The translations under genes and the position numbers were made by a program. Below, piece after piece: positions 15,457 to 56,735 of a stretch of 64,000 nucleotides of DNA. Every line of letters starts with the position of its first letter. The first letter of the stretch is position 1. The stretch is from Salinimicrobium xinjiangense DSM 19287 (GTDB taxonomy: Bacteria > Bacteroidota > Bacteroidia > Flavobacteriales > Flavobacteriaceae), in NCBI RefSeq assembly GCF_000423585.1, contig NZ_AUIG01000023.1, forward strand, positions 1 through 64,000, written 5' to 3'. The notes beneath the pieces are model-generated. The model had not been told where the DNA came from, ran no database searches, and was given only the letters and a program-made list of their open reading frames with translations.

Positions 15457-15984
15457 ATGTCTGCGGAGTCTACTGCTTATCCAGATCGGGTAAATCTCGA
15501 GAATTGTGAAAGGGAACCTATTCACTTCATAGGTAAAACGCAGGAATTCGGAGTGCTGATTGTCTGTGATCCGAAAAGTCTGAAAATTACTCAGGCAGGT
15601 GATAATGCCGGGCATTTTTTAGGAATCTCTGCAACGGATCTTCTAGGGAAAGAGCTTTCCTTTCTTATAGGTAGGGACCAGGCAACTAAATTAAACACCC
15701 TCCAGACAGAAAAGGTAGTAGTACCCCAGGAGGTGAGTGTGAATAACAGAAGGTTTCTGATGTTAGCCCACCATTCCAGGGCCAGCCTTTTGCTCGAATT
15801 TGAGCCTCTTGAAGACGTTTTGGATCCCCTGATCTTTCAAAATCATTTATCTTCTATTCTGCACACTTTTCAGCAAGCAGGATCTGTAAATGAATTATGC
15901 GAGGCAGCAGCGCTATTAACCAAAAAGATGCTGGGATATGACAGGGTGATGATCTACAGATTTGATTCCCAGTGGAATGGATAA
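15457..15984 (+). CDS. bacteriophytochrome N-terminal fragment (PAS plus start of GAF)
   Basis: This 175-aa product is what would be made if TAA 15982-15984 terminates translation. It contains the PAS domain with candidate chromophore cysteine C17 but only the first part of the GAF pocket (to YRFDSQWNG). It could not hold the chromophore in a normal pocket or signal by itself. Confidence 0.8.
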   Translation: MSAESTAYPDRVNLENCEREPIHFIGKTQEFGVLIVCDPKSLKITQAGDNAGHFLGISATDLLGKELSFLIGRDQATKLNTLQTEKVVVPQEVSVNNRRFLMLAHHSRASLLLEFEPLEDVLDPLIFQNHLSSILHTFQQAGSVNELCEAAALLTKKMLGYDRVMIYRFDSQWNG

Positions 15985-16011
15985 GTAATAGCCGAAGAAA
16001 AGGAGGAAGAC

Positions 16012-17694
16012 ATGGACTCCTGGCTTGGTTTGCATTATCCTGCGACCGATATTCCGGCACAGTCAAGAAAACTTTTCTTAGAACATAGGATAAGGGTCAT
16101 TACTGATGTTAACTATAAACCGGTTCCTGTTTTACCGGAGATATCTCCTCTTACCAAAGAGCCACTGGACCTGTCACGCTCCGGGCTTAGAGCTGTATCT
16201 CCAATCCATATAGAGTACTTGCAGAACATGGGAGTAGGAGCCTCTTTAACTTCTGCCATAGTGGTTAAAGGAAAATTATGGGGACTCATTGCCTGCCATC
16301 ATATAACTAAGAAATTTCCTCATTTTTACCAAAGGGAAAGCGTCAGGTTTCTGGCACATTTATTATCCGGCGAACTTGCTCTTTTTGAAACAACCGGCCA
16401 GATAAAAAGCTTTGAGCTTGCAGAGAACATAAGAAGACAGCTCGTGGCTCAAATGAAATACCACAAAGACCTTTTACATGCCTTAACCAGGGATAGTGTG
16501 CAATTTACCGACCTTATTAGTTGTGGAGGGGATGCCGTCTTTATAATGAACAAATGGGAATTAAAAGGAAATACTCCCAATGTTGAACAGCTAAAAAGTC
16601 TATTGTACAATTTTATAGAAAAACAGCCCAAAAGTATTTTTCTTACCACAAATCTTTCAGATCATTTTCCTGAAGCTAAAGCTTATCAGGCTAAGGCATC
16701 AGGCCTTCTCAGTCTGAGAATTGCAGAGAATAAGTACATATTCTGGTTTAAACCTGAAGAGGTACAGGTGGTGAATTGGGGTGGAAATCCAGGGAATAAA
16801 GCCTTCTACAACGAGGAGAAACAACGCCTGAGTCCGCGAAAGTCATTTGAAAAATGGAGCCAGAAGCTAACGGGAATTTCTCAGCCCTGGGGTGAGCTTG
16901 ATAAAAGTATTGCACGATCCCTCAGAGAGGATATAAGTCATTTTTTGCTGGCGCAACAGCGGGAAGAGATTGAGGCGCTAAATTCAAAATTAGTAGAGGC
17001 CAATAAAGAACTGGAGCTTTTTAGCTATGGGTTATCACACGACCTAAGAGCGCCGGTAAGAGGGATGGATGGTTATCTTTCCATTATTGAGGAAGATTAT
17101 GCAAAGGATTTAAATGATGAAGGAAAGCAAATGCTTCACATGACCCGTGCATTAACAGAGAAAATGAATAATCTCATCGATGATATTCTGGAATATTCCC
17201 GCCTTAGCCATTCTGAAGGAATAGAAATAAAAGAGGTCGAAACTTCAAAGTTGATTCGGGAAGTATTGGAATTCTTTCATTTAGAGCAAAGTTTTCCGAA
17301 TTCAGAAATAAAACTTCAGCCGCAAATGCCATCTATGTATGGGGATCGCAGGATGCTTTTTCAACTCTGGGCAAATTTGCTCAATAACGCGCTGAAATAT
17401 TCCGCCGAAACAGAAAAACCTCTAATAGAAGTAGGAACAACAGTAAAAAAAGGGAGTGAAGTATTTTATGTGAGGGATAATGGTATTGGTATTGATCCCG
17501 GTGATAAAGAAAGGATCTTTGAAACCTTCCAAAGAGCTGTAGGAAGCCGTTTCAAAGGAACGGGTATTGGTCTGGCTATTGTGAAAAAGATCGCGGAAAA
17601 ACATATGGGAGAGGTCTGGGTAGAAAGTATTCCCGGAGAAGGTTCCCAATTTTATTTTTATCTTGGAGATCTCCGTAAGCAGAAGGTGATATAA
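16012..17694 (+). CDS. bacteriophytochrome C-terminal fragment (GAF remainder, PHY, HisKA, HATPase)
   Basis: An in-frame ATG at 16012 (27 nt after the stop) could restart translation to give 560 aa: the rest of GAF from DSWLGLHYPATDIP, the PHY domain, and a complete kinase module. It has no obvious ribosome site of its own, although GGAGGAAG lies just upstream (about 16002-16009). It ends directly at the response regulator start (17694/17695). Confidence 0.8.
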   Translation: MDSWLGLHYPATDIPAQSRKLFLEHRIRVITDVNYKPVPVLPEISPLTKEPLDLSRSGLRAVSPIHIEYLQNMGVGASLTSAIVVKGKLWGLIACHHITKKFPHFYQRESVRFLAHLLSGELALFETTGQIKSFELAENIRRQLVAQMKYHKDLLHALTRDSVQFTDLISCGGDAVFIMNKWELKGNTPNVEQLKSLLYNFIEKQPKSIFLTTNLSDHFPEAKAYQAKASGLLSLRIAENKYIFWFKPEEVQVVNWGGNPGNKAFYNEEKQRLSPRKSFEKWSQKLTGISQPWGELDKSIARSLREDISHFLLAQQREEIEALNSKLVEANKELELFSYGLSHDLRAPVRGMDGYLSIIEEDYAKDLNDEGKQMLHMTRALTEKMNNLIDDILEYSRLSHSEGIEIKEVETSKLIREVLEFFHLEQSFPNSEIKLQPQMPSMYGDRRMLFQLWANLLNNALKYSAETEKPLIEVGTTVKKGSEVFYVRDNGIGIDPGDKERIFETFQRAVGSRFKGTGIGLAIVKKIAEKHMGEVWVESIPGEGSQFYFYLGDLRKQKVI

Positions 17695-18264
17695 ATGATT
17701 AAAGTTCCATTAAGAATATTATTAGTAGAAGATAATGAGGCCGATATTTTGATTACACGGCGCAGTATTCAAAAGCTTGTAGAAGCCCCGCTTATTGTGG
17801 TTGTTGAAGACCTTTCTTCCTGCCGGGAGAAACTGGTGAATTTTATCCCCGATCTGGTAATATCAGATTATAATTTACCTACCTGTACAGGACTGGATGT
17901 CCTGGAACTTGTTAAGGAAAAGGATCCGGCCTTGCCGCTTATCTTTCTTACCGGCACTGTTCATGATGAAGAACTGGCGGCGAACACTATTCTTGCCGGT
18001 GCCTCAGGATATATTCTTAAGAAGCATATGAATAAGCTGGAGGAAAAGCTGAAGCCATTACTAAAAAAGGTGGTGTTCAATATGGTAGCCAAAGATGAGG
18101 TAAGGGAGAGACTTCGTAAAAACAAGATTGCCATTAACCAGATCTATGATTATCTCGACAGCCTTAAAGCCGACAATAAAGAGCAAAGGGAGAATATCGG
18201 AAAGTTAAAGGACACGATAAGGGAATTCAATGAGGAGAAAGATGGAGATGATTCAAAGGCTTAA
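17695..18264 (+). CDS. single-domain response regulator
   Basis: Protein of 189 aa with one receiver domain: acidic pair in LLVEDNEAD, phospho-acceptor D58 in VISDYNLP, the threonine in FLTGT, and lysine in ILKKH. No DNA-binding output domain; the last 60 residues are helical and charged. Its ATG immediately follows the phytochrome stop codon, so it is the likely phosphoryl acceptor for that kinase or the CheB-CheR kinase. It overlaps the heme oxygenase start. Confidence 0.9.
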   Translation: MIKVPLRILLVEDNEADILITRRSIQKLVEAPLIVVVEDLSSCREKLVNFIPDLVISDYNLPTCTGLDVLELVKEKDPALPLIFLTGTVHDEELAANTILAGASGYILKKHMNKLEEKLKPLLKKVVFNMVAKDEVRERLRKNKIAINQIYDYLDSLKADNKEQRENIGKLKDTIREFNEEKDGDDSKA

Positions 18265-18802
18265 GGAGGAAACACGGGATCTACATGAACAGGTGGAGGA
18301 GCAGAATCTTGCAAGATTGATAATGGATTACAGTATTGATCTAAATACCTATAAGCAGCTTTTGCTTCAGAACTATATCGCTTATCAGGCTACCGAGAAT
18401 GCCATACAGAATTACCTTGCGGACTATAGCGGAAAAAAGCATATTCAGCTAAAACAGGATTTAGTACATCTGGGAGTTTCCCCGGAAAGACACTCCAAAA
18501 ATATCATTTTTGAATGTCATTCTAAAGCTGAAGCTCTTGGAGCTGCCTATGTGGTGGAGGGATCGACATTAGGAGGAATGCTTCTCGCAAAGAATATTGA
18601 CAAATGCAAACATCTTGTCTCTATAGACCGGCATCATTTCTTTAACGGGAATAAAGACAATCTAAAGGACTGGAAGCATTTCAAAAAAGAACTTGAGCAG
18701 TATACATTTTCTAACGCTGAAGAAAATGAAGCTGTAGAAAAAGCCAGGGATACCTTCAGATTTTTCCAGGAGGTTTTTAATCGGGAAATTATCTTAACAT
18801 AA
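18242..18802 (+). CDS. bphO: biliverdin-producing heme oxygenase
   Basis: Protein of 186 aa from ATG 18242; in-frame ATGs at 18230 and 18248 are alternatives. I chose 18242 because AGGAGA lies just upstream. The N-terminus RLKEETRDLHEQVEE carries the proximal heme-ligand histidine, and GAAYVVEGSTLGG is the distal-helix glycine-rich motif of bacterial heme oxygenases. It opens heme to biliverdin, carbon monoxide and iron. The start overlaps the response regulator's 3' end, the usual bphO-bphP operon pattern, so it supplies the phytochrome chromophore. With the phytochrome interrupted its present use is unclear. Confidence 0.9.
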   Translation: MEMIQRLKEETRDLHEQVEEQNLARLIMDYSIDLNTYKQLLLQNYIAYQATENAIQNYLADYSGKKHIQLKQDLVHLGVSPERHSKNIIFECHSKAEALGAAYVVEGSTLGGMLLAKNIDKCKHLVSIDRHHFFNGNKDNLKDWKHFKKELEQYTFSNAEENEAVEKARDTFRFFQEVFNREIILT

Positions 18803-55004: not shown

Positions 55005-55625
55005 ATGGCAGAACTTATCAGGATTTATGAAGAAAATCCCAATCCGCGAGAAATAAAAAGAGTAGTTGACGCCCTGAGAGACGGGGCAGTGATCATTTAT
55101 CCCACAGACACAGTTTATGGTCTGGGCTGCGATATCACCAATAATAGTGCACTCGAAAGAATAGCTCATCTAAGAGGAGTAAAACTGGAGAAGGCCAATT
55201 TTTCCTTCATCTGTGAAAATTTGAGTAATCTCTCCGATTATGTGAGGCAAATAGATAACCAGACTTTCAAGATCCTTAAAAGGAATCTGCCAGGGCCATA
55301 TACTTTTGTGCTACCTGGAAATAATAATCTTCCCTCTGTATTTAAGAAGAAAAAAACGGTCGGAATAAGAGTTCCCGATAATAATATATGTCGGGCTCTT
55401 GTCTCCGGATTAGGTAATCCAATTGTTTCCACCTCAATAAAAGACGACGATGAAGTCCTTGAATACACAACAGACCCGGAACTTATCCTTGAAAAATGGG
55501 ATAAGCTGGTCGATATAGTCATTGACGGAGGTTACGGAGATAATATTCCTTCTACCGTAATTGATCTCACTACTGCCGAGCCCGAGGTTATCCGTGAAGG
55601 AAAGGGCAGTTTAGAAATATTGTAG
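55005..55625 (+). CDS. L-threonylcarbamoyladenylate synthase (Sua5/YciO/YrdC family)
   Basis: Protein of 206 aa, single YrdC domain (RDGAVIIYPTDTVYGLGCDI, KRNLPGPYTFVLPG, VGIRVPDN, PSTVIDLTTAEPEVIREGKG). It makes threonylcarbamoyl-AMP for t6A37 of tRNAs, though it could be the YciO paralogue. The C-terminal 15 nt overlap the convergent HExxH lipoprotein gene (55611-55625). Confidence 0.9.
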   Translation: MAELIRIYEENPNPREIKRVVDALRDGAVIIYPTDTVYGLGCDITNNSALERIAHLRGVKLEKANFSFICENLSNLSDYVRQIDNQTFKILKRNLPGPYTFVLPGNNNLPSVFKKKKTVGIRVPDNNICRALVSGLGNPIVSTSIKDDDEVLEYTTDPELILEKWDKLVDIVIDGGYGDNIPSTVIDLTTAEPEVIREGKGSLEIL

Positions 55626-56735
55626 TTCTCTAACTGTTTCGGGTAAGACTTTAAGGAGAAAATAGTCATGTAATTCCTGAGGAGAAAGGATCTGTCCCTT
55701 CTTTTTTGCAGCTTCTGCTAATAAATATCCTTCAAAAGAGGCTTGTTTTCTTTGGAGAGGAGTTCCATGGTGTTGTTCGAATTCAAAAGAGCAGTCTCCG
55801 GCCTGGTAAAAAAGTTCAAAGAATTCTTCTGCACGCTTCCAGTTAAAGGTTGCACCTCTTTTATGTGTCATGTAATAACCTGAAAAGAAATCGGCTTCCA
55901 GCTCGAGCATACGGGTTCTTTCTGCCGCGTCCATTTGGTTATCTGATGGATACCAGGAGTTCATAAAGTGAAACTGAATTTGGTGTGCCCATTCGTGTGT
56001 GACTATACCCGTCCAGACAATATCGTTCTGCAGTCCTGTTTCGGCAAATAGCTTAATAAGGCCATCCCCAACTACAATTTTTCCGTTTTGGGCAGCAAAT
56101 CCATCGCTTGAGATAAAGGGAGATCTTATTAACTCCGGGAATTTTTGGTTGAGAGCAATTATCGCATCTGCAAGTCGGTAAGCTTCTTCTTTGGATTCCA
56201 TGTCATTTATGGAGTACCAGTAAATATCGGCAAGACTCTCCCGATCCTCGAGGGTTTGATTATGTTGTCCCAAAATATTTATTTCCCGGTCTATATTCCA
56301 GAATCTCTCCAGGTCCCTTTCCAGCTTTCCCACGAATTGCGTGTGTATACTGTTGCTACCATAATAGTCACTGCCGATACCTAATTTAGCTGCCTGCCGG
56401 TTGAGGTATTTATAATGTGCCAGGTGATCTAGAGCTTCAGGGTTTGCAAGCAGTTTCTCGAAATAACGGCCGCTCACTTCCGCTAATTTTGTAGCTCCAC
56501 ATTCTGTAGGGGAAATAGCATTCAGCAATAGATCCTGCAGGTTTTCATTATGAGAGAAATCTTCCGGAGTTGTTATAAGAACGGCTTTTGATGGCTCATC
56601 CGGAATTTTCGCAAGTAAGCTTTCAACGGTAAATACAGTCTCTACCGCAGGATTTTCCAGATGTTCAGGTTCACAGGCTGTTCCCAAAAAGATCAACAGC
56701 ACCGGCAACAGAATTTTTGTGCAGATACGTAACAT
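55611..56735 (-). CDS. putative zinc-metallopeptidase lipoprotein (HExxH)
   Basis: Protein of 374 aa with lipoprotein signal (LLPVLLIFLGTAC). Around residue 245, THEWAHQIQFHF gives an HExxH zinc motif, followed by RMLELEADFFSGYYMTHKRG with a candidate third ligand, and HHGTPLQRKQASFEGYLLA further on. This arrangement resembles neutral zinc metallopeptidases of the YpfJ kind, but the overall family is not recognised, so proteolysis is inferred from the motif alone. Convergent with, and overlapping, the Sua5-family gene. Confidence 0.8.
   Translation of the reverse strand: MLRICTKILLPVLLIFLGTACEPEHLENPAVETVFTVESLLAKIPDEPSKAVLITTPEDFSHNENLQDLLLNAISPTECGATKLAEVSGRYFEKLLANPEALDHLAHYKYLNRQAAKLGIGSDYYGSNSIHTQFVGKLERDLERFWNIDREINILGQHNQTLEDRESLADIYWYSINDMESKEEAYRLADAIIALNQKFPELIRSPFISSDGFAAQNGKIVVGDGLIKLFAETGLQNDIVWTGIVTHEWAHQIQFHFMNSWYPSDNQMDAAERTRMLELEADFFSGYYMTHKRGATFNWKRAEEFFELFYQAGDCSFEFEQHHGTPLQRKQASFEGYLLAEAAKKKGQILSPQELHDYFLLKVLPETVRELQYF

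Follow-up and report, generated by a model that had tools for sequence, protein, structure and literature searches.

A nonsense codon interrupts the only bacteriophytochrome histidine kinase gene detected in the genome of Salinimicrobium xinjiangense DSM 19287

The window analyzed here is the whole stretch of positions 1 to 64,000 on the forward strand of contig NZ_AUIG01000023.1 (assembly GCF_000423585.1) of S. xinjiangense DSM 19287. It contains a cluster of four genes encoding, in order, a CheB/CheR/PAS/histidine kinase (HK) fusion protein, a phytochrome, a response regulator (RR) and a heme oxygenase (Table 1). Heme oxygenase produces biliverdin, the pigment of phytochromes. The phytochrome frame runs from the ATG at 15457 to the terminal stop at 17692-17694, and a TAA in the same frame, at codon 176, splits it into 175 codons and 569 codons. 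The bacteriophytochrome is therefore not encoded in one continuous frame. The 745-codon frame has no second stop and no frameshift, and translation through the stop gives RFDSQWNG*VIAEEKEED.

Table 1. Positions of the phytochrome cluster genes and of the features within the interrupted frame, numbered from the first base of the window.
Feature	Positions	Strand	Domains and remarks
CheB/CheR/PAS/histidine kinase fusion, 1214 aa	11804..15448	+	Pfam CheB_methylest, CheR, PAS_10, PAS_9, HisKA, HATPase_c
5' piece of the bacteriophytochrome frame (175 codons and TAA)	15457..15984	+	Cys17, PAS_2, start of GAF
Nonsense TAA in the GAF motif WNG-x-VIAE	15982..15984	+	Stop column compared with 33 uninterrupted relatives
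3' piece in the same frame (569 codons)	15985..17694	+	Remainder of GAF, PHY, HisKA, HATPase_c
First ATG 3' of the stop, preceded by AAGGAGGAAGAC	16012..16014	+	Restart here conceivable but unlikely; its product would have 560 aa
Response regulator, single receiver domain	17695..18264	+	Pfam Response_reg; directly abuts the phytochrome frame
Heme oxygenase	18230..18802	+	Pfam Heme_oxygenase

The read-through frame has the domains of a bacteriophytochrome HK, with Pfam PAS_2 (residues 17-117) on the 5' side of the stop and GAF, PHY, HisKA and HATPase_c on its 3' side. The N-terminal cysteine, the residue that binds biliverdin in bacteriophytochromes, is Cys17, in NCEREPIH. The GAF region, with its DIP motif and conserved histidines, contains YPATDIP at 194, SPIHIEYLQNMG at 248 and CHH at 280. 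The PHY domain (Pfam score 153.2 bits) has the PRxSF motif of the tongue as PRKSFEKW at 460, and the kinase core, covered by HisKA and HATPase_c and including the phospho-acceptor His and the ATP-binding boxes, has SHDLRAP at 527, NNALKYS at 643, DNGIGID at 674 and GTGIGLAI at 701. A sequence-only reading of the same DNA had described a lone in-frame nonsense codon in a bacteriophytochrome whose key motifs are intact; the translation and the Pfam domains on both sides of the stop confirm this, and all of the motifs searched for are present in the read-through frame. The best sequence match to a solved structure is 8uph_A, a chain named bacteriophytochrome (2.4e-123, residues 12-737). The frame resembles such PAS-GAF-PHY-HisKA-HATPase bacteriophytochromes in domain order and motifs along its whole length, but unlike them it is interrupted, and as it stands it encodes no full-length protein. 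Since the read-through frame scores 350.6 bits against a cut-off of 1040 for the NCBIfam equivalog NF041576 (BphP), the protein is called a phytochrome by its domains and not a BphP equivalog.

The cluster is conserved in the genus. The order CheB/CheR-kinase, phytochrome, RR and heme oxygenase is kept in 10 of the 11 other genus genomes (G001-G011), and the difference here is that the phytochrome frame is whole in all 11 of them. Orthologs of the RR are found in 10 of the 11 relatives and those of the heme oxygenase in every one. In the S. xinjiangense cluster these two genes and that of the CheB/CheR-kinase are open and of full or near-full length compared with the relatives; for the RR and the heme oxygenase this agrees with the sequence-only reading. 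The CheB/CheR-kinase fusion also has a full or near-full length ortholog in 10 of the 11 relatives, and it stands first in the cluster in 10 of them. From this conserved arrangement, the CheB/CheR-kinase and phytochrome cluster appears to be a shared light-signalling unit. In the remaining genome for the fusion protein, G007 (75% complete; cluster at G007:C149), only an 88-codon remnant of the CheB/CheR-kinase is present and the RR has no match, while the phytochrome and the heme oxygenase are whole. A BLUF gene adjoins the heme oxygenase in G007. BLUF proteins are blue-light sensors, a different kind of light sensor from the phytochromes. The S. xinjiangense genome (G000) has three BLUF matches, at G000:C13:67613-67873, C2:261256-261498 and C9:53635-53892, which is the highest number in any of the 12 genus genomes.

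The PHY domain has exactly one match per genome in all 12 genus genomes. The frame with the stop is the only phytochrome found in its genome, where no second, compensating phytochrome was found. An alignment of the whole frame with the 11 other genus copies runs through the stop at 46-65% identity, so that the frame corresponds to a single homologous protein, and the 3' piece alone is 48-69% identical to them. In the wider family, 25 of 397 genomes were matched at E <= 1e-100, at 26 places, 4 of which are in the genus. Together with the 11 genus copies, the 22 copies from elsewhere in the family made 33 for comparison; none has an internal stop, and the disabling change is absent from all of them. 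Four candidate internal stops were set aside: in the copies of G154 and G338 a single TAA is the natural gene end, and in those of G002 and G007 the stops lie at or beyond the gene end. A search for close strains in another contig collection returned only two distant loci, 36% and 24% identical, and among the matches listed from plasmid records (at least 5000) all have less than 60% identity.

The sequence-only reading placed the stop at a Glu codon and derived it from GAA. Of the 33 uninterrupted relatives, 25 have Glu at the position of the stop, three have Lys, two have Gln, and Ile, Val and Ser occur once each. Judged by this column, the lost residue was probably Glu, but the position tolerates change and is not invariant. 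The relatives use eight different codons there (GAA, GAG, AAG, AAA, CAA, AGT, ATT and GTT), so the ancestral codon cannot be told and the change from GAA in particular does not follow.

The main rival to a real mutation is a base error in the assembly or consensus, in which case the codon is a sense codon in the organism and the phytochrome is intact there. Such an error is unlikely here but has to be taken seriously. The rest of the gene looks functional, the other 11 genus genomes all have the phytochrome whole, and in a 45-contig draft an error of this kind would look identical to a real stop. Single-base errors are uncommon in short-read drafts. Several comparisons within the genome also argue against an error. 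The ORFs of the window were compared with those of syntenic stretches in three relatives (E <= 1e-20, identity >= 40%); the comparison covered the parts outside about 22-50 kb, where no match occurred. For 22 window genes there were sense-frame matches to syntenic genes in one to three relatives; 21 of the 22 are free of internal stops, the exception being the phytochrome. Another 11 matches fell outside the frames of the listed genes: eight contain stops, each of them in another frame of a listed gene, and the remaining three are free of stops, one of these being the gene at 55611-56735. Elsewhere in the genome, 27 further kinase-domain matches also lack internal stops.

Among 21 TonB-receptor barrel matches in the genome, one has an internal stop. 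This TonB-dependent receptor (G000:C2:96500-102000, frame 97862-100147) has a TAG and a TGA in an otherwise open frame of 762 codons. The two stops align with Glu (eight copies) or Asp (one) and with Phe (eight) or Trp (one) in the copies of nine relatives. Its best genus match is 48% identical (G009), and the other genus matches are 32-34% identical. By its sequence it is an ordinary pseudogene, which means that this assembly does contain genes broken by nonsense codons. Two stops in one gene are more easily explained by a real pseudogene than by base errors, and the presence of this receptor gene also counts against an error in the phytochrome. On these sequence comparisons the assembly is not visibly error-rich, and in our judgement a real nonsense mutation is favored over an assembly error. 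The sequence-only reading had named very recent loss and sequencing error among its options, and a single stop in an otherwise intact gene with an intact RR and heme oxygenase beside it fits either of these.

The age of the lesion can be bounded from the absence of others. A random substitution in this gene creates a stop with a probability of 0.044. Without a second lesion, a gene evolving neutrally would have taken up at most about 68 substitutions (3.0% of the gene) at the 95% level when indels are ignored, or about 22 (1.0%) at an assumed ratio of 0.1 indel per substitution. Recency rests on this absence of further lesions because even the nearest relatives examined share no more than 62-65% of residues along the full protein. 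Of 193 columns without variation among the other 11 genomes, 4 are changed in the broken copy. The same measure gives 11 of 200 for G001, 13 of 202 for G002, 5 of 194 for G007 and 42 of 231 for G009, and the other genomes range from 0 to 42 differences. The broken copy thus shows little sign of decay at otherwise invariant columns, as far as its sequence goes. When the three most distant species are left out, the broken copy is the most changed of the nine closer ones (24 of 316), followed by G007 (19 of 311). Its branch is 0.369 long in the phytochrome tree and 0.229 in the four-protein tree, a 1.6-fold ratio that is tied with G001 for the highest. Both the 24 changes and the 1.6-fold ratio fit the long branch of this copy; these are weak signs, and they leave room for mild relaxation.

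Selection on the gene was estimated with a branch model on the FastTree tree of four concatenated proteins, in which one inner support is 0.402; the phytochrome-only tree puts the species elsewhere, with a support of 0.571. Omega is 0.058 on the branch of the broken copy and 0.114 in the background (2dlnL 9.6). Taken apart, the 5' piece has an omega of 0.088 against a background of 0.165, and the 3' piece 0.051 against 0.098. Relaxed selection is not detected by omega on this branch, whose synonymous sites have reached saturation (t = 7.4). Because of the saturation, the test excludes only an old loss; it neither dates a recent one nor shows continuing function. Across the 12 terminal branches, omega lies between 0.058, the value for the broken copy, and 0.179. 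That this copy has the minimum probably comes in part from the saturation and is not read as extra constraint. The only clearly raised omega is on the phytochrome branch of G007 (0.179 against 0.103, 2dlnL 10.1).

Another explanation is a protein made in two pieces, in which translation restarts at 16012 and the PAS fragment cooperates with the GAF-PHY-kinase fragment, or the latter acts as a light-blind kinase. The restart ATG lies 27 bases 3' of the stop with AAGGAGG before it at a suitable distance, and neither piece is under relaxed selection by the omega values above, but this selection signal mostly predates the stop. The cut falls inside the GAF domain and parts the cysteine from the pocket, and none of the 33 other copies is split. 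The purine stretch is also what the Lys-Glu-Glu-Asp codons spell, with similar codons in whole copies, and AAGGAGG occurs 16 times in the window on both strands together. An ATG is present in the column of 16012 in 6 of the 11 genus relatives. Ten other plus-strand starts in the window have no AGGAGG, and three of them have weaker purine stretches (AAGGTG, AAGGG and AGGAA). According to a study of Bacteroidia, to which this organism presumably belongs, ribosomes of this group do not recognize Shine-Dalgarno sequences, except for rpsU (PMC9976891), which argues against a restart guided by such a sequence. A restart at 16012 driven by the GGAGG-like stretch is therefore unlikely, and a restarted product would lack Cys17 along with PAS_2 and the first part of GAF. 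We regard the two-piece protein as very unlikely. That the stop is real and maintained in the species, as part of a natural split phytochrome whose two separately translated pieces reassemble or act independently of light, is highly improbable.

Programmed or suppressed read-through of the TAA would yield some full-length protein, and the sole point for it is the open, conserved frame to either side of the stop. It is scarcely credible, since TAA is also the ordinary terminal stop of the same gene and the internal stop is unique to one copy among 34. A suppressor tRNA, a check proposed in the sequence-only reading, was not found: of the 40 tRNA genes recovered and read with ARAGORN, not one has an anticodon that reads a stop, in a search that scored 150 of 206 first-look candidates and gave a set without a tRNA-Ile. 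The tRNA-Leu with anticodon taa was considered and rejected as a suppressor, as it reads UUA and not UAA. Local RNA folding is unremarkable, with a stability around the stop that is not above that of shuffled sequences (z = -0.82). Promoter-like sites are not in excess between 15300 and 18900, where both strands together have four and shuffled sequences average 7.4. Phase variation, which the sequence-only reading had also raised, finds no support at the site, as no suppressor tRNA was found and the search around the stop found no tandem or inverted repeats near it. That search returned two 12-base direct matches, each in two copies hundreds of bases apart, and neither touches the stop.

The explanation we consider quite probable is that the sole bacteriophytochrome HK gene found in this genome has been disabled by one recent nonsense substitution. 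We infer a genuine change in the DNA of the organism, a complete loss of function and a very recent event. Translation would stop after 175 residues, inside GAF. The stub would keep the pigment-binding cysteine and the PAS domain, but would have no complete pigment pocket, no PHY domain and no kinase. The strain would have lost phytochrome signalling, with the RR and heme oxygenase genes still open.

A precedent is the bphP1 gene of the laboratory strain Rhodopseudomonas palustris CGA009, where one lesion has likewise disrupted a phytochrome gene. It is frame-shifted in CGA009 and whole in another strain, and laboratory selection was suggested (PMC6899989). That case differs in being a frameshift and not a nonsense change, in its output domain and its organism, and in that only there does a strain comparison exist. 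By analogy, the loss in S. xinjiangense may perhaps have arisen during isolation or laboratory culture. The literature on broken bacteriophytochromes and on phytochromes of the Flavobacteriaceae, in the portions available, contained no description of this gene.

The case is most likely an ordinary strain-level loss of a light sensor, and not a new system or kind of gene, and it leaves knowledge of phytochromes and of translation unchanged. If the stop is real, this strain would be without its only known red-light sensor, of which every other genus genome examined has a whole copy. It should then not be taken as a phytochrome reference, and it would offer a natural loss-of-function line for asking what role the phytochrome has in these bacteria.
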